A DNA stretch of 64,000 nt from contig JAQSXR010000002.1 in NCBI GenBank assembly GCA_029256575.1, positions 136,272 through 200,271 on the forward strand. Direction: 5' to 3'. This document shows, in pieces, positions 21,348 through 32,721 of this stretch. Origin of the DNA: Clostridiales bacterium. Lineage in GTDB: Bacteria; Bacillota; Clostridia; Lachnospirales; JAQSXR01. The notes under the pieces are model-generated. The model did no database searches and was not told the DNA's origin. It saw nothing but the letters and a program-made list of their open reading frames with translations. The translations under genes and the position numbers were made by a program. Position 1 is the first letter of the stretch. Each line of letters starts with the position of its first letter.

Positions 21348-22802
21348 TTATTTTCTATGCGAAGAAAACTCATATTCGCTGTAGCTTTCTAAACTTTCAT
21401 AAATTCCTCTTGTATCTGCTTTACTTAATAATTCATTTCGATTTCGATTTATCATAGGACCTACACTTACACTACCAGGCCCGTTCACACATCCGCCTTC
21501 ACAAGCCATACCTTCTATTAAATCTTCCGGAAGTTTTCCGCTTTTTAGAATCAGAAGAGCTTTCTTACACTCTGCAGCACCGTTACATTGTCTAACCTTA
21601 TACTCACTCGCATCATGCCCTTTTTCTTCAAGTGCTCGTACAACTGCTGCTGTAACACCACCCGCACTTCCAAACTTCTTAGCATATATACTCGCTTGTT
21701 GCACTTCTTCTGCATTAATGTCAAATTCTATCTCAGAAGCTTCAAACAATACTTTAAGCTCCTCGAACGTTAATGCGTAATCAGCACTATCTTGTGTTAC
21801 ACTATCGAGAACTTCACCTTTTTTAGCAATGCAAGGCCCTATAAATACTACGATTGATTCAGGAGACATTGCCTTGATTAATCGAGCCGTTGCGGTCATA
21901 GGTGAAACTGTTGTAGACATACAATCATATACGGTTGGATAATGTTTCTTAATCATGTTTACAAATGCAGGGCAACAAGATGTAGTCATTTTATTACCTT
22001 TTGATTTTGCTTCAAATAGTTCTTCTGCTTCACTAGCAGCCACTATATCTGCTCCTATTGCAACTTCAAACATATCAGTAAATCCTAACTTTTTAATTGC
22101 ATCTTTTAGTACACCTATGGTAATATCTTTTCCAAATTGACCTTCGATAGCAGGTGCCACCATCGCATAGACTGGTGTCTTCGTTTTAATTAGTTTTATA
22201 ACATCTACAAGGAATGAACGGTCTGAAATAGCTCCGAATGGGCAATCTTTTATGCAAGCTCCACAGTTAATGCATTTTCCTGAATCGATCACAACTATAT
22301 TATTCTCATCCATTGAAATTGCGTCTACTGGGCAACTTCTTTTACAAGGTCTCATTAAATCTGCTATTGCATTGTATGGACAGGCAGATGCACATGCACC
22401 ACACTCTTTACACAAAGATGGATCTATGTACGCTCTATCTTTCGTCATCGAAATAGCTCCAAATTTACAGGATTGTTGACACTTCTTGCTCATACATTTT
22501 TGACAATTATCGGTTACAACATATCTCATTATCGGACACCCTTCACAAGCAGAGCTGATAACTTGAACTATGTTTTTATTCCCCTTATTTGGTACTGGTG
22601 TTTTCCCTTGTGCTAATCGAATTCTTTGACTAATGATTTCCCTTTCTTTATATACACAACATCTAAAGTTAGGTCTTGGTCCTTCGAGCATTTCATAAGG
22701 TAATTTATCTGCATCACTAAGTTTGTCATTTAGTGCTAATTTTGCTACTTCATATAATACTTCATGTTTAATATTGTTAATATTATAATTTTTTTCTAAC
22801 AC
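21348..22802 (-). CDS. [FeFe]-hydrogenase, group B type (iron-only hydrogenase large subunit)
   Basis: 484 aa, cytoplasmic. After an N-terminal domain with CCVYKEREI and CEGCP come several ferredoxin-like CxxCxxC clusters: CQKCMSKKCQQSC, CKECGACASACP, CKRSCP and CINCGACIKDCP. The H-cluster domain has all three signatures: TSCCPAFVNM (L1), PCIAKKGE (L2) and EGGCVNGPG (L3). This arrangement matches group B [FeFe]-hydrogenases, found in clostridia and poorly characterised biochemically. It starts at GTG with AGGAGG upstream and follows the SpoIIE-like phosphatase by 12 bp. Maturases HydEFG are not in this window. Confidence 0.88.
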   Translation of the reverse strand: MLEKNYNINNIKHEVLYEVAKLALNDKLSDADKLPYEMLEGPRPNFRCCVYKEREIISQRIRLAQGKTPVPNKGNKNIVQVISSACEGCPIMRYVVTDNCQKCMSKKCQQSCKFGAISMTKDRAYIDPSLCKECGACASACPYNAIADLMRPCKRSCPVDAISMDENNIVVIDSGKCINCGACIKDCPFGAISDRSFLVDVIKLIKTKTPVYAMVAPAIEGQFGKDITIGVLKDAIKKLGFTDMFEVAIGADIVAASEAEELFEAKSKGNKMTTSCCPAFVNMIKKHYPTVYDCMSTTVSPMTATARLIKAMSPESIVVFIGPCIAKKGEVLDSVTQDSADYALTFEELKVLFEASEIEFDINAEEVQQASIYAKKFGSAGGVTAAVVRALEEKGHDASEYKVRQCNGAAECKKALLILKSGKLPEDLIEGMACEGGCVNGPGSVSVGPMINRNRNELLSKADTRGIYESLESYSEYEFSSHRK

Positions 22803-22814
22803 GTTTTCCTCCTT

Positions 22815-23987
22815 CTAGTAATACTTTACTGTTACATTTTTGCCCATAAGCGTTGCTGCGATTTTAATTTCATCAATCAATTTCATTCTAATACTTAAAT
22901 CAAATGGCAAACCTGGATTTTGATGTGCTTCATTTATTGCTTTCCCCACAAGTAGTGTTAAATCTGTGCAAGATTCAATAATAACCTTTGCAATCATTGA
23001 ACCTCCATTGTCTAGGTCTAATTCATCAAAAAACTTCTCATCAATTTGATCTTCATTATATCTTCTCATTAAGGCTAATGCTCTCGTTAATGTAAGAACC
23101 CCTTCTGTAACTAAATCTATCCCTACTATTTTAGCAATTGGTGGCAAAGAAGGATCCGTATAGTTTAAAGAGGTTTCTATCTTTTTATGAAGTACTCTAG
23201 CAGCTATATTAGCTGAAGTTCCACCACAAATGATTCTAGTAGTTTGTCCCTTCATTAGTTCTCTCACTATGTTGATATCGTCCGTGTCGTTTAGTGGAGG
23301 GCCTGTAAATAATGTAACTGGCTTACTATTTATAATTCTAACTGCCGCGATTGTAGTGTCGTCTCCCGGCAACTGCATATACAAATCATCACAAGCTTTG
23401 CTTAGCATAGCTGCCAGTCTAGAGGCAGAAACAGTCTTACTAGCTGCTTCAACCGTGTATTCTGCTACACTTTCCCAAGTCCATCCGTAATTTAATATTT
23501 TACCAACCCCAGCATGAATTGCTCCATCACTCATTAATACTAAACTATCACTAGGCTTAACACGGAACCTGCTCTCTTTAATTATTTTACCTTCAATTAT
23601 ACGCTCAACAGATGGTAGCTTATTAATTTTCCCATCACGAACAAACACACAAGCTGGATTATCAAATTCTACTAAGTATACTTCTCCAGTGTGGAAAATT
23701 TGTAATATACTGAAGGTTGAATATGCTACTTGTCTAACCTGACAAACTGGTAATGTCTTCACAATTGTTTCTACACATTCATCTATTGATGCTCCATTTC
23801 GAAACATAGTTCCAAGTATTTTAGAAGTTAAGGTTGCTAGAATATTTGCTTTAACTCCACTACCCATTCCATCAGCTAATATTACAATATTAGAATCCTC
23901 TGTTTTTAATATCTCAACTTTATCGCCGCATAACTCTTCGTGATGCTTATTCAAACTTATGTATGATATGTCAACGCTTACGCTCAT
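22815..23987 (-). CDS. SpoIIE-like PP2C-type serine phosphatase
   Basis: A 390-aa cytoplasmic phosphatase. The PP2C/SpoIIE fold is marked by VILADGMGSGVKAN (metal Asp, ~residue 39), LVLMSDGAIHAG (~148) and PGDDTTIAAVRI (~205). About 170 further residues follow the phosphatase domain, with GGTSANIAARVL and GIDLVTEGVLTLTRAL. Standard SpoIIE has many TM helices; this one has none. It overlaps the sensory hydrogenase gene by 4 bp (ATGA) and precedes group B hydrogenase. This neighbourhood fits the known clustering of SpoIIE-like phosphatases with sensory [FeFe]-hydrogenases, suggesting H2 or redox signalling by dephosphorylation. Confidence 0.85.
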   Translation of the reverse strand: MSVSVDISYISLNKHHEELCGDKVEILKTEDSNIVILADGMGSGVKANILATLTSKILGTMFRNGASIDECVETIVKTLPVCQVRQVAYSTFSILQIFHTGEVYLVEFDNPACVFVRDGKINKLPSVERIIEGKIIKESRFRVKPSDSLVLMSDGAIHAGVGKILNYGWTWESVAEYTVEAASKTVSASRLAAMLSKACDDLYMQLPGDDTTIAAVRIINSKPVTLFTGPPLNDTDDINIVRELMKGQTTRIICGGTSANIAARVLHKKIETSLNYTDPSLPPIAKIVGIDLVTEGVLTLTRALALMRRYNEDQIDEKFFDELDLDNGGSMIAKVIIESCTDLTLLVGKAINEAHQNPGLPFDLSIRMKLIDEIKIAATLMGKNVTVKYY

Positions 23988-25336
23988 TTCTTTTTCACAG
24001 CCTCTCCATCAAAGAGGATCGTATCTCTCATCCTTGTAAGTGTAACCTTTGTTTCTGCAGTTGTCTCGCCAAGTAGCCCTGCTATTTGCTGTGCTACCAT
24101 CATTTGTTTATCAATAACTCTTTGCGCTATTTCTATCGTTTCAACTTTTATTTTATAATCTTGTTTTATTTTTTCTTCTTCTTCTGAGATGTCTTGGAAA
24201 ATGCCTAAAACACCGTCTATTTCTTTTACATAAACAATATTTACTTTAACAGTTAAATTCCATTCCGTAAGTTCTATTTTTTTCCCTAAAATACTTGTAT
24301 GCGTTTCTAATACATATTCAAAATCAGAATGATCAATAAACTCATATAAATACATTTCTTTTGCTTCTAACTTACTTTTCTTAAACGCTTTTTCCGCAGA
24401 GGAATTAAATTCTGCTATTTTCATTTCACGATCTACGATTAATATAATGTTTGGTGAGGTACTCAAAACTATGTTAGACATAGAGGTAGCCTTCTCATGC
24501 ATATATGGAATGCACATTGTTAGTTCCGCTTTCCCTCGAAATACTGCAATTGCTTTTTCTCTACAAGAAGAATAACCACAAGCCCCACAATTAAGCTCAT
24601 GTTGCTTTTCAGTTTTCCCAGTTTTTTTCAGGATTTTCCTAATAATTTCTTCAGATGGAATCTCTTCGTTCGGTGATCTATCTACAAATACTTTGTTTAG
24701 CGAAATGTTCTCTAAATCTTCCTTATATTCGGTTAGGTATGCTGCTTCTTTTTTAATTGCATCTTCCATATCAAGTTTAACTTTAAATCTAGAAATAAAA
24801 TCTCGTTCCACTGCAGACCCCTTTATACAACCTCCACTACAAGTATTTACTTCTATAAAGCAATCAGAAACTTCACCTTTGGACATACTCTCAAATAATT
24901 CAATGCAGTTCTTAATTCCATGAACATAGAATTTTCTATATTTATCAGTTTTATTATTCGTTGCAATAACAGCAGACAAAACTCCGCTACTAATCGGATA
25001 CAACCTATTCACTCTAGGATCTGGATTATGGGGTTCAACTTCATCGCATTCCATTATGTCAATGTTCTTTTCACTTAACCACTCTTCTAGTTCCGTAAAA
25101 TTAATAACTGCATCAATATACCCTTCCACTCTCGGGTCATCAACTGCTTCTCTTTTCTTAGCGATACAAGGACCTAGAAAAACAACTTTAACATCTCTAC
25201 CTAATTCCTCTTTAATTATTTTTCCGTGAGCAATCATAGGTGAAACTACCGGTGCCATATATTGTACTAAATTGGGATAATAAATCTCAATTAAATCATT
25301 AACGCTTGGGCAACAAGTCGTAATGATATTCTCCAT
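23984..25336 (-). CDS. Sensory [FeFe]-hydrogenase with PAS domain, 3' part of a broken gene
   Basis: 450 codons from an internal ATG. The H-cluster domain has TTCCPSVND (L1), PCIAKKREA (L2) and CSGGCIKGSA (L3). A 4Fe-4S domain CGACGYSSCREKA follows (~252), then a PAS domain (~290-400) and a coiled-coil-like end (YKIKVETIEIAQRVIDK). This is the group C/HsfB-type sensor layout. The reading frame stays open upstream of the ATG and encodes TNEYNKLLNEGK, which looks like native coding sequence, but the N-terminal ferredoxin part is in another frame (25365-25655). About 25 residues of the H-domain seem deleted at the join. Likely a pseudogene or a recoded gene. Confidence 0.8.
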   Translation of the reverse strand: MENIITTCCPSVNDLIEIYYPNLVQYMAPVVSPMIAHGKIIKEELGRDVKVVFLGPCIAKKREAVDDPRVEGYIDAVINFTELEEWLSEKNIDIMECDEVEPHNPDPRVNRLYPISSGVLSAVIATNNKTDKYRKFYVHGIKNCIELFESMSKGEVSDCFIEVNTCSGGCIKGSAVERDFISRFKVKLDMEDAIKKEAAYLTEYKEDLENISLNKVFVDRSPNEEIPSEEIIRKILKKTGKTEKQHELNCGACGYSSCREKAIAVFRGKAELTMCIPYMHEKATSMSNIVLSTSPNIILIVDREMKIAEFNSSAEKAFKKSKLEAKEMYLYEFIDHSDFEYVLETHTSILGKKIELTEWNLTVKVNIVYVKEIDGVLGIFQDISEEEEKIKQDYKIKVETIEIAQRVIDKQMMVAQQIAGLLGETTAETKVTLTRMRDTILFDGEAVKKK

Positions 25337-25364
25337 TTTACCTTCGTTTAATAATTTATTATAT

Positions 25365-25655
25365 TCATTTGTATTGCCCTGCTTTCTTATATTTAAGGAT
25401 TCCTAAGTAAGAAGGTGCTAGCGAAACTACTACTTTCATTCCTAATTTTATGTATTGTTTTACTTTATCTAAATCACTAATAATAGATTTTGCATTTTGT
25501 GGGCATATTTCGAGGCAATGTCCACATAGAATACATTTTTCATTTAAGATTTGTGCATGATTATCTTTTACTACAATTGCTTTAACATCACAGGTACGAA
25601 CACATTTATAGCAGTCTTTACACTGTGTCTCCTTAAAACCAATTACATTAATCAT
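25365..25655 (-). CDS. Sensory [FeFe]-hydrogenase, 5' part of a broken gene (2x[4Fe-4S] domain)
   Basis: About 96 codons starting MINVIGFKETQCKDCYKC. Two ferredoxin clusters are visible, CKDCYKCVRTC and CILCGHCLEIC, followed by the first strand of the hydrogenase domain (VVSLAPSYLGILKYKKAGQ), after which the frame ends in TGA two codons later. The rest of the hydrogenase domain continues in a shifted frame at 23984-25336. The start at 25655 has AGGAG 10 nt upstream and is preferred over a codon 12 residues earlier. As it stands, this would yield a small soluble ferredoxin-like fragment. Confidence 0.75.
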   Translation of the reverse strand: MINVIGFKETQCKDCYKCVRTCDVKAIVVKDNHAQILNEKCILCGHCLEICPQNAKSIISDLDKVKQYIKLGMKVVVSLAPSYLGILKYKKAGQYK

Positions 25656-25711: not shown

Positions 25712-25954
25712 TTATGCTAGTCTTGGTAACACTTCTTCATTAAAGAATTTTTCTGTTGTACTTGGAACTAGAGAAAAGATTTGATCATCTATTTTTACAC
25801 TTACTCCTTTTGTACATTCTCCCATACAGAAAGAACCGTTCATTTCTATCTTGTCGTTGATTTCATTTAAAGACACGAGTCTTTCCAAAATTTGAATTAC
25901 TTCTCTTGAACCTTTTAAATGGCAAGAGCTTCCTATACATATAGTAATAGTCAT
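25712..25954 (-). CDS. Thioredoxin-like [2Fe-2S] ferredoxin (NuoE C-terminal domain type)
   Basis: 80 aa. Cysteines at CIGSSC (C6-x4-C11) and CMGEC (C-x3-C, ~43-47) match the single [2Fe-2S] cluster of the thioredoxin-like ferredoxins related to NuoE/HndA; HLKGS after the first pair is characteristic. Probably feeds or accepts electrons for the sensory hydrogenase encoded immediately downstream (57 bp gap). It has a paralogue at 37235-37471 with altered cysteine spacing. Strong AGGAGG site. Confidence 0.85.
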   Translation of the reverse strand: MTITICIGSSCHLKGSREVIQILERLVSLNEINDKIEMNGSFCMGECTKGVSVKIDDQIFSLVPSTTEKFFNEEVLPRLA

Positions 25955-26217: not shown

Positions 26218-27012
26218 TTACGCCCTATTCTCTTCAATCCATTTCACAGAGAAATCAACCAAATCTCTTTGATTCATAAACCTGATTTCTGCATTTCCAA
26301 TTACATCTATATTAACTAAATTCTTTTCTTCAAATGCTTTCCCTATTTCCTCGAAGTCTTCACCTTCAACCACTAAGGTCTCATATGTAACCCATTTTCT
26401 TTGCCCATCTACTAATATTGCACTGCTTTCTTCCGCATTGTGCTTACTTTCGTACTCAGCTCTTACATCCGCTAAATGAATCGATGTATTTTTATCATAT
26501 CCCACTCCTAGTAATAATACGTGTCCATTCTTTTCATACAATTTAGCAATTGGAGAACCTTCCCCAAATATATTAGATAAATCATGCTCATTCGTAAAAT
26601 AATCGGCATTTTTGCCTACTGCTGCTATTGATCGAGCTGGGTGATCACTTCGTTTTGCACCAGGCCATCTACGAAACATCTCTGCAACGGAACCCATTGT
26701 ATTCGTTGGAGTAATATCTTTATCATAAGCTGGCCAATTATCTCGAATAATTTGCCACCATTCTTCTGGTTCCTCCCAATGTACTCCTGCCTTTGGATCA
26801 AGGTTCTTCCAGGTTTGTGTTGGCATTAATATCGTTCCTTCTTCTCCAACCGCATCTAATAACGCTTCAATAATAATTTGAGGTCCTCCGCAAACAAAAC
26901 CAAAGCTTTTTAATGATGTATGTACGATTATGTCCATACCTTTCGTAACTCCAACTTTATTTAGACCATCAATAATATCTTGTTTTAAAACAATCTTTCT
27001 TTCTATTTCCAT
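26218..27012 (-). CDS. Aminoglycoside N(3)-acetyltransferase-like protein
   Basis: About 264 aa of the AAC(3)/YokD family, which transfer acetyl from acetyl-CoA to the 3-amino group of aminoglycosides or unknown amines. Family motifs: VHTSLKSFGFVCGG near residue 30, LMPTQTW near 62, NTMGSVAEMFRRWPGAKRSDHPARSIAAVG (as separate short blocks) near 105-130, and LLGVGYDKNTSIHLAD near 170, with the conserved His. The ATG at 27012 follows GGAGGG by 7 nt; a GTG at 27027 overlaps the ribosome site. Chromosomal homologues often do not give clinical resistance, so substrate is open. Monocistronic. Confidence 0.88.
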   Translation of the reverse strand: MEIERKIVLKQDIIDGLNKVGVTKGMDIIVHTSLKSFGFVCGGPQIIIEALLDAVGEEGTILMPTQTWKNLDPKAGVHWEEPEEWWQIIRDNWPAYDKDITPTNTMGSVAEMFRRWPGAKRSDHPARSIAAVGKNADYFTNEHDLSNIFGEGSPIAKLYEKNGHVLLLGVGYDKNTSIHLADVRAEYESKHNAEESSAILVDGQRKWVTYETLVVEGEDFEEIGKAFEEKNLVNIDVIGNAEIRFMNQRDLVDFSVKWIEENRA

Positions 27013-27158
27013 TTTTATTCCCTCCACTAAATGTATAAAATAATTAATAGTTATATATTACCAAATTATTCATAGAAATACAATGGTTAATCGTATAACT
27101 TTGTAACTAATGTTATTATTTAGTACAACAACTTTACAACAACTATATGTTTACTCAG

Positions 27159-30604: not shown

Positions 30605-30709
30605 TCACCTCATTATAAATATTGCACATGCAAAAATTAACGCTACATATAGTACTACGGCAATCAATTCCAATACAATCCCTTTTATCTCATTTTTTTT
30701 GATAACCAT
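30605..30709 (-). CDS. 34-aa single-span membrane peptide between trkA and trkH
   Basis: A 34-codon frame beginning MVIKKNEIKG, followed by one clear transmembrane helix (IVLELIAVVLYVALIFACAI) and ending FIMR. GGAGG sits 9 nt upstream of the ATG. The start overlaps the 3' end of trkA by 25 bp and the stop is 4 bp before trkH. These points argue that it is a real gene. Its size and form recall KdpF, the small peptide of the Kdp K+ ATPase, but no sequence similarity is claimed. It may stabilise TrkH. It is easily missed by standard length cut-offs. Confidence 0.7.
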   Translation of the reverse strand: MVIKKNEIKGIVLELIAVVLYVALIFACAIFIMR

Positions 30710-31377
30710 TTTTTATTTCCTCCATCATATAACTCATTTACTAAAGCTGATAAAACAGAATTATTAGTTATTATTAGAACCTTATCACCAATCAAAAACT
30801 GAGTATCACCTCTTGGATATATAATATTTTCTCTACGTATTACTGAAACAACTACACATTCTTTAGGTAATAAAAGATCTCTAACCATATTATTACACCA
30901 AATACTATTTTCCTTTATTGAAAGCTCCGCTAAAACCATAGAACCACGTTCGAACGTATTAATAATTCTGTAATCATCTTTATCAAGCGCATATTCGATC
31001 AAATTTGCAATTACCTCTGTACTGCAAACTGTATTATCAATCCCAAGATTCTTAAACATTTTGGTATTTTTCGGGTTATTTACACGGGCTATCGTTCTCA
31101 TATTATTAAAACTTAACTTGGCTATCTGACAAATAACAAGATTTTCTTCATCAGTCCCTGTAACAGCTGCAACAATTTCAGCCTCTTCAATTCCAGCATC
31201 CTTAAGAACCTCTAAATCAGTTCCATCTCCCCAAATTACATCAGTGTTGATCTCTTCGGCAATTTTCATACAGGTAGCCTTGTCTCGTTCAATTAGAGTT
31301 ACCTGATGTTCTCTCTCTTTCAATGTTTTAAATAAATTATAACCTATTTTACCTCCACCAATTATTATTGATTTCAT
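30685..31377 (-). CDS. trkA: Trk potassium uptake regulator TrkA (RCK domain)
   Basis: 230 aa, cytoplasmic. One NAD-binding RCK_N domain with IIGGGKIGYNLFKTL (GxGxxG-type) and an acidic end of the second strand (LIERDK), then an RCK_C domain (~140-220). It regulates TrkH gating by binding nucleotides. The start overlaps the preceding RCK gene by 4 bp. Two separate half-size TrkA proteins are present in the operon, instead of one double-length TrkA as in Escherichia coli. Confidence 0.9.
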   Translation of the reverse strand: MKSIIIGGGKIGYNLFKTLKEREHQVTLIERDKATCMKIAEEINTDVIWGDGTDLEVLKDAGIEEAEIVAAVTGTDEENLVICQIAKLSFNNMRTIARVNNPKNTKMFKNLGIDNTVCSTEVIANLIEYALDKDDYRIINTFERGSMVLAELSIKENSIWCNNMVRDLLLPKECVVVSVIRRENIIYPRGDTQFLIGDKVLIITNNSVLSALVNELYDGGNKKWLSKKMR

Positions 31378-32027
31378 AACAATTTCTCCTTACTATAAGA
31401 ATTTATCAATCTTCCTTTATCCGTTTTTCGAATAGTACATATCATTCTATCTCCTGTGTGTATTATTTCATTTTTTTCAGGAAGTCTTACTTTCCCATCT
31501 TTAATCAATCCTGATATGATACAACAGTATTTTTCTTCAATCTCCTTAACAGCAATTGACTTTTCTTTGCTAACAAGAAGGTCAATGATTTCATAATTAT
31601 TATCTAAAGATAAAACAATCCCTAAGTTTTTTATATATAACTTGTTTTTTAATATTTCAATCTCAGACTGAACTGGATTAATGGTATTAATGCCTAATTT
31701 ACTATAGATGAACTTTTTTCCAGGATCATTAACTCTTGCGATGATTTTGGGAACCTGAAATATTTTATCTGCAATTAAAGATACCGTTATATTTATATTA
31801 TCATCTGGTGTCACCGCAAAAAGTGCATCTGCTTGATTTACTCCTGCTTCTAACAGATTGTCGCTGTCAAATTCAATTCCTTTTATCCGTCGACCGTTGA
31901 AGCCGCTTCCTAAGGTATTTAGTTTATCTCCATTACGATCGATAATACAAATATCGTTACCGTCATCAGCTAATCCCTTTGCTAAGGTACTACCTAATCT
32001 TCCACAACCGATAATGATTATATACAT
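31374..32027 (-). CDS. TrkA-type RCK domain protein
   Basis: 217 aa, cytoplasmic. RCK_N with IIGCGRLGSTLAKGL near residues 4-18 and ICIIDRN ending the second strand, then SLIADKIFQVPKIIARVNDP, and a C-terminal RCK_C domain (~135-210). Paralogous to the downstream TrkA; the two probably form a hetero- or homo-ring on TrkH. Strong GGAGG ribosome site. Confidence 0.88.
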   Translation of the reverse strand: MYIIIIGCGRLGSTLAKGLADDGNDICIIDRNGDKLNTLGSGFNGRRIKGIEFDSDNLLEAGVNQADALFAVTPDDNINITVSLIADKIFQVPKIIARVNDPGKKFIYSKLGINTINPVQSEIEILKNKLYIKNLGIVLSLDNNYEIIDLLVSKEKSIAVKEIEEKYCCIISGLIKDGKVRLPEKNEIIHTGDRMICTIRKTDKGRLINSYSKEKLL

Positions 32028-32099
32028 ATAATTTCCTCCATAACATTAATTTACTTTTTTCAAATGTACTAACCGATACCCCTTCTATTAGATTTCACG

Positions 32100-32354
32100 T
32101 TAGTATATATCTTCAATTAAACCTGTAAGTACCATTTCTTGAGATACCCTATTAGTAACTATCACTATCATAAGCATATCTCCTTTTCGTATTTCAGTCC
32201 TTCCATTTGGAACAAACGTATTATTACCTCTAACTATGCACCCTATAATTACATTTTCTGAAAGACCTAGGTCCATAATTTGTTTACCACAAGAACTATA
32301 TCCGCTTTCAATCTTCACTTCTAGTAACTGTAGTTTTTCTTTGTCTATTGGCAT
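32100..32354 (-). CDS. Stand-alone RCK_C (TrkA C-terminal) domain protein
   Basis: About 84 aa from the ATG at 32354; the frame is open further back to about 32447, overlapping the TPR gene. The sequence fits one RCK_C domain: LQLLEVKIESGYSSCGKQI, then ENVIIGCIVRGNNTFVPNG and RKGDMLMIVIVTN. No Rossmann domain is attached. The start is uncertain: AGGAAGG lies 14 nt upstream of the ATG, which is long. RCK_C domains bind small ligands such as c-di-AMP in Firmicute K+ transporters, so this could be a ligand-binding partner for the Trk system (inference). Confidence 0.6.
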   Translation of the reverse strand: MPIDKEKLQLLEVKIESGYSSCGKQIMDLGLSENVIIGCIVRGNNTFVPNGRTEIRKGDMLMIVIVTNRVSQEMVLTGLIEDIY

Positions 32355-32400
32355 TATGTTTTTGGTTACCTTCCTATCTAGAATTTTGATTGTCCTGTTC

Positions 32401-32721
32401 TTATAAAGTTTCTTTACCAAAATCGAATGGTATCCTTTTAGATGCAAAGATGGTGCACACTCGTTCTAAATTTCCACTTGCTGGTTTATAAGTTGGATCT
32501 AATGCATATGCTGCTCTATAATGTTTTCTTGCTAAATCATAATTACCTTTGAGTTCATTCCAAATTCCAAGAAGATTATGAGGTTCTGGAGCATTTGGAT
32601 TTTCAATTAATGCTTTTATGATAGCCTTATACGATTCCTCACTCTTATAATTGTGAAGTTCAATGGTTGCCGCCTTAATATAATTATTAAATTTGTTAGA
32701 ATTTATTTCAATTTTATCCAT
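32401..32721 (-). CDS. Small tetratricopeptide-repeat protein of the Trk operon
   Basis: About 106 aa, cytoplasmic. Two TPR-like helical hairpins: SYKAIIKALIENPNAPEPHN and YDLARKHYRAAYALDPTYK, with Leu/Ala/Pro at TPR positions. The ATG at 32721 follows AAGGAGG; a GTG three codons upstream is too close to it. First gene of the Trk segment after the KdpE-like gene's terminator. TPRs mediate protein contacts, so it may be a scaffold for the Trk/RCK proteins (inference). Confidence 0.75.
   Translation of the reverse strand: MDKIEINSNKFNNYIKAATIELHNYKSEESYKAIIKALIENPNAPEPHNLLGIWNELKGNYDLARKHYRAAYALDPTYKPASGNLERVCTIFASKRIPFDFGKETL

Follow-up and report, generated by a model that had tools for sequence, protein, structure and literature searches.

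Organization of the locus

We analyzed a 64,000-nucleotide stretch of DNA (the window), the minus strand of which carries, in this order, genes for a 2Fe-2S protein, a 96-aa ORF, a 450-aa ORF, a SpoIIE-type phosphatase and a group B [FeFe]-hydrogenase. The features of this putative sensor operon are as follows:

25712..25954, minus strand: thioredoxin-like [2Fe-2S] ferredoxin-domain protein, 80 aa, first in the conserved cluster (PF01257, E 4.3e-6)
25365..25655, minus strand: 5' fragment of HydS, 96 aa from its ATG, with Fer4 domains; two 4Fe-4S motifs and the first H-domain strand, then a frameshifted -YK-stop
25373..25374, minus strand: deletion junction in HydS, 68 bp absent compared with relatives (DNA and protein alignment)
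23984..25336, minus strand: 3' fragment of HydS, 450 aa counted from a conserved internal Met; remaining part of the H-domain, FeS, PAS-like region and C-terminal helices, all open
22815..23987, minus strand: SpoIIE/PP2C-type phosphatase, 390 aa, intact (PF07228, E 3e-15)
21348..22802, minus strand: group B monomeric [FeFe]-hydrogenase (HydB), 484 aa, intact (TIGR04105, 596 bits against a cut-off of 450)

The two HydS ORFs are present as an earlier note on this DNA had described them. The C-terminus of the 5' ORF reads ...LGILKYKKAGQYK and stop (also given as ...APSYLGILKYKKAGQYK and stop). The ATG of the 3' ORF, which begins MENIITTCCP, lies 28 nt beyond this stop, and the in-frame reading upstream of that ATG is ...TNEYNKLLNEGK. 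Directly 3' of HydS lie the phosphatase, whose ATG overlaps the HydS stop (ATGA), and then the group B hydrogenase. Profile matches and comparison with relatives bear out the earlier statement that the remainder of the operon is intact, the 2Fe-2S protein, phosphatase and group B hydrogenase all being whole. A homologue of the 2Fe-2S protein, 49–78% identical, occupies the equivalent place in most relatives, and the phosphatase is 62–72% identical to its counterparts in the nearer relatives. The 2Fe-2S protein has a Ser where at least 97% of 79 relatives show Cys, and keeps the cysteines of CIGSSC and CMGEC, which are likely cluster ligands.

Just upstream of the operon is a gene of the PF02522 aminoglycoside 3-N-acetyltransferase family (26218–27027, minus strand), which scores below the NCBIfam AAC(3) cut-offs and is probably a general family member. 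The window also holds a Trk potassium uptake cluster (30685–32447, minus strand), with a short TrkA_C-only ORF (32100–32447) upstream of a 217-aa TrkA_N-only ORF (31374–32027), followed by a normal TrkA (30685–31377).

Family assignment of the disrupted gene

Judged by sequence, the disrupted gene is a group C (HydS-type) sensory [FeFe]-hydrogenase/PAS gene. The N-terminal Fer4 domains required of this group are found in the 5' fragment, which is matched by PF00037 and other Fer4 models. The PF02906 (Fe_hyd_lg_C) H-domain is incomplete, the 3' fragment spanning profile positions 71–244 of 245, and the H-cluster cysteine motifs TTCCPS, GPCIAKKRE and NTCSGGCIKG are all in this fragment, aligned with those of relatives. 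The 3' fragment also matches an FeS domain profile and gives a weak PAS match (PF00989, E 4.6e-4, 20.6 bits, just under the 22.6 cut-off); PAS-like strands are visible in the predicted structure of an intact relative. These domain matches, together with the company of the 2Fe-2S protein, SpoIIE phosphatase and group B hydrogenase in the operon, lead to the group C assignment and lend support to the sensory [FeFe]-hydrogenase call of the earlier note.

A 68-bp deletion within the H-domain

Alignment of the DNA with ten near relatives revealed that the 69 nt (23 codons) which separate the Gln of 'GQ' from the Thr of 'TNEY' in the relatives are reduced to a single T in the window. The break point thus lies at 25374/25373, with 68 bp gone and the frame shifted. 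A deletion of about 75 bp with a frameshift had been proposed earlier; the deletion and the frameshift hold, and the size is corrected to 68 bp. The HydS of Anaerocolumna sedimenticola (L033) maps to the window as residues 1–94 and 117–579, each at about 69% identity, and the 5' fragment is 70% identical to its residues 1–93. The piece between residues 94 and 117 of this protein has no match anywhere in the genome analyzed here. The junction sits deep in a 211-kb contig, far from both ends. Deletion via long direct repeats was rejected as a mechanism, no such repeat being evident at the junction when the relatives are taken in place of the ancestral sequence.

The lost residues (94–116 in L033 numbering) comprise 23 residues that include the nearly invariant LGF..(V/I)RET.EGA. 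The segment is constant in length and free of indels in 24 aligned relative proteins, and L101, G102, F103, E108, T109, E111, G112 and A113 are invariant among these. In a model of an intact relative, built on the 24-sequence alignment (mean pLDDT 75.5, locally about 85–90), the lost segment corresponds to helix 91–100, strand 105–108 and the first turns of helix 110–126 of the H-domain. The modelled fold agrees with that of [FeFe]-hydrogenases of solved structure, among them T. kivui HydA1 (8a6t) and CpI, and the lost residues align by sequence to about residues 253–276 of CpI. According to the model, the missing segment is part of the H-domain core and not a linker. Since it lies inside the H-domain, homology indicates that neither HydS fragment, nor the two together, should form a normal H-cluster domain.

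Conservation of an uninterrupted HydS in relatives

Comparison with the operons of relatives, as the earlier note had proposed, revealed a conserved gene order, with neighbor genes of ordinary similarity and no relative having two ORFs. Among the closest homologues in GTDB-species contigs, the frame runs unbroken for at least 575 codons in 80/80, which argues that the lesion is not a chance observation. Homologues from whole-genome searches in the order are also single-frame, the sole short one being cut by a contig end, and the size of homologues ranges from about 560 to 680 aa in one open frame. A conserved two-ORF arrangement encoding two separate proteins, one of the alternatives originally considered, is therefore ruled out by the 80 contig homologues and the uncut whole-genome homologues. 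The gene is a probable pseudogene, carrying a disrupting lesion that is absent from its orthologues.

Age and state of the break

Both HydS fragments are about 69% similar to their relatives, level with the intact neighbors. No second lesion was found in the 1,644 coding bases of the two fragments, in which about 4.3% of single substitutions would create a stop. Under common indel assumptions this bounds the age of neutral decay at about 1–2% divergence, as more would probably leave a second lesion. The absence of a second lesion and the similarity of the fragments to their relatives, matching that of the neighbors, suggest that the break is either recent or absent from the organism. The 3' fragment deviates at 2/96 near-invariant columns, compared with 1/47 for the phosphatase and 6/143 for HydB, one of the latter being merely a GTG start; the count obtained for the 5' fragment arises artefactually from the alignment of its tail. 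For the fragments, relaxed selection thus finds no backing in an excess of changes at near-invariant columns, in a test that cannot date a recent event.

The assembly consists of 64 contigs, with 95.3% completeness, 1.4% contamination and a partial 16S at a contig end. A Pfam scan of about 45 other ORFs in the window revealed no second clearly split gene, which argues against a generally poor assembly.

Hydrogenase maturation genes

The genome has four PF02906 loci, namely the HydA of a HydABC set (C3), a 409-aa protein (C6), HydB and the broken HydS, so that three [FeFe]-hydrogenase genes are intact in the assembly (G000, in which the window contig is C37). None of HydE, HydF and HydG was detected over cut-off in this 95.3%-complete assembly, with T. 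maritima as a positive control. hydG lies next to hydF in three of the four near relatives inspected, and hydE, where identified, adjoins the pair; as the genes are clustered, a single assembly gap could remove all three together, and they may lie in such a gap. Five other genomes with a full-length intact HydS (G041, G062, G158, G257 and G357) also show no match above the family cut-off for either HydG or HydF. G041, G062 and G158 belong to one genus, and a further genome with a 566-aa HydS (G007) has HydF without HydG.

Interpretation of the disrupted putative sensor gene

The best explanation, to which we assign a probability of roughly 70%, is that a 68-bp deletion, costing 23 H-domain residues and shifting the frame, has recently put a group C HydS gene out of action in this strain or lineage. 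The recent loss of an H2/redox sensor had been among the alternatives raised at the outset, and the absence of the lesion from relatives favors it. We infer the biological origin of the break, its recency and the loss of function, together with the signaling role of HydS. In relatives, intact HydS would bind H2 at the H-cluster, and its FeS and PAS domains would relay a redox or structural signal to the SpoIIE-type phosphatase encoded with it, which would thereby adjust hydrogenase and fermentation genes. In the organism studied here, the 5' product would be only a ferredoxin-like stub, and any 3' product arising from re-initiation at the ATG 28 nt beyond the stop would be without part of the H-domain; with such products, H2-dependent control should be lost, while the phosphatase and group B hydrogenase would still be encoded. 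More speculatively, the 3' ORF, if translated by re-initiation, may only keep the phosphatase translated. Against recent inactivation, the open 3' frame and intact motifs could signal continuing selection on the fragment.

A less probable explanation, which nevertheless carries some weight, is that HydS is whole in the dominant cell, the genome being metagenome-derived and its deletion either an artefact of assembly or an allele of a minority strain. The fragmented and incomplete assembly described above, with its contamination and its partial 16S at a contig end, is compatible with this, and both fragments show the tight conservation that an actually intact gene would have. However, assemblers seldom drop 68 bp of unique sequence from within a 211-kb contig, the lost piece is absent from the rest of the assembly, and no second gene in the window is clearly split.

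The maturation genes raise the doubtful possibility that HydEFG are truly gone from the lineage, with HydA, HydB and the third hydrogenase retained, in which case the HydS break would reflect early decay of H2 metabolism, or the hydrogenases would have an unknown maturation or use. In some other Lachnospirales with an intact HydS, HydF and HydG are likewise missing.

It is very unlikely that the 3' ORF encodes a functional regulator blind to H2 (FeS-PAS-helices), made by internal initiation and still contacting the phosphatase. A GAAGG motif immediately precedes its ATG, its frame is fully open with few deviations at near-invariant columns, and the ATGA overlap means that its translation could be needed for coupling to the phosphatase. 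Yet the stand-alone form occurs in no relative, the internal Met adjoins the conserved TTCCP motif, the truncated H-domain would probably misfold, and the selection signal is equally accounted for by a recent lesion. A conserved internal start was rejected, since almost none of the closest relatives has the Shine-Dalgarno-like motif ahead of this Met. Frameshifting or other recoding that restores one HydS protein can be dismissed as extremely improbable, because recoding could join the two frames, which overlap around the TGA, but could not give back the missing near-invariant H-domain residues.

If the recent inactivation is real, the organism would offer a naturally occurring H2-sensor knock-out in an otherwise intact operon, and its contrast with an intact relative could test the targets of the sensor, as the role of HydS has so far only been inferred. 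Otherwise, the locus calls for caution in annotation, and both ORFs should be labelled as a single disrupted gene.

Comparison with known systems

Group C enzymes have been described as putative H2 sensors (PMC6776011; PMC10055695). In Ruminococcus albus, an H-cluster subunit with PAS is accompanied by a putative Ser/Thr phosphatase with regulators as its possible targets, and the sensor unit as a whole is co-regulated with the H2 level (PMC6776011). The gene reported here resembles Thermotoga maritima HydS (PMC10055695) and the sensor of R. albus 7 (PMC6776011) in combining Fer4, H-domain and, by a weak match, a PAS-like region with a hydrogenase alongside, and it shares with R. albus 7 an adjoining Ser/Thr-type phosphatase. 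By contrast with both, it is broken inside the H-domain, and the adjoining hydrogenase is of group B, compared with the A1 type in R. albus. The operon is closest in layout to the intact HydS operons of Anaerocolumna and other Lachnospiraceae (L033, L035 and L113), which have the 2Fe-2S protein, HydS, SpoIIE phosphatase and usually the group B hydrogenase; their HydS is about 69% identical but reads through without a break over about 580 aa. The lesion is like that of ordinary small-deletion bacterial pseudogenes, being a short out-of-frame loss in an otherwise intact gene with no second lesion and nothing distinctive about it, and instead of pointing to a novel type of system, the break looks like either the ordinary, recent inactivation of a gene from a known family or an assembly error.
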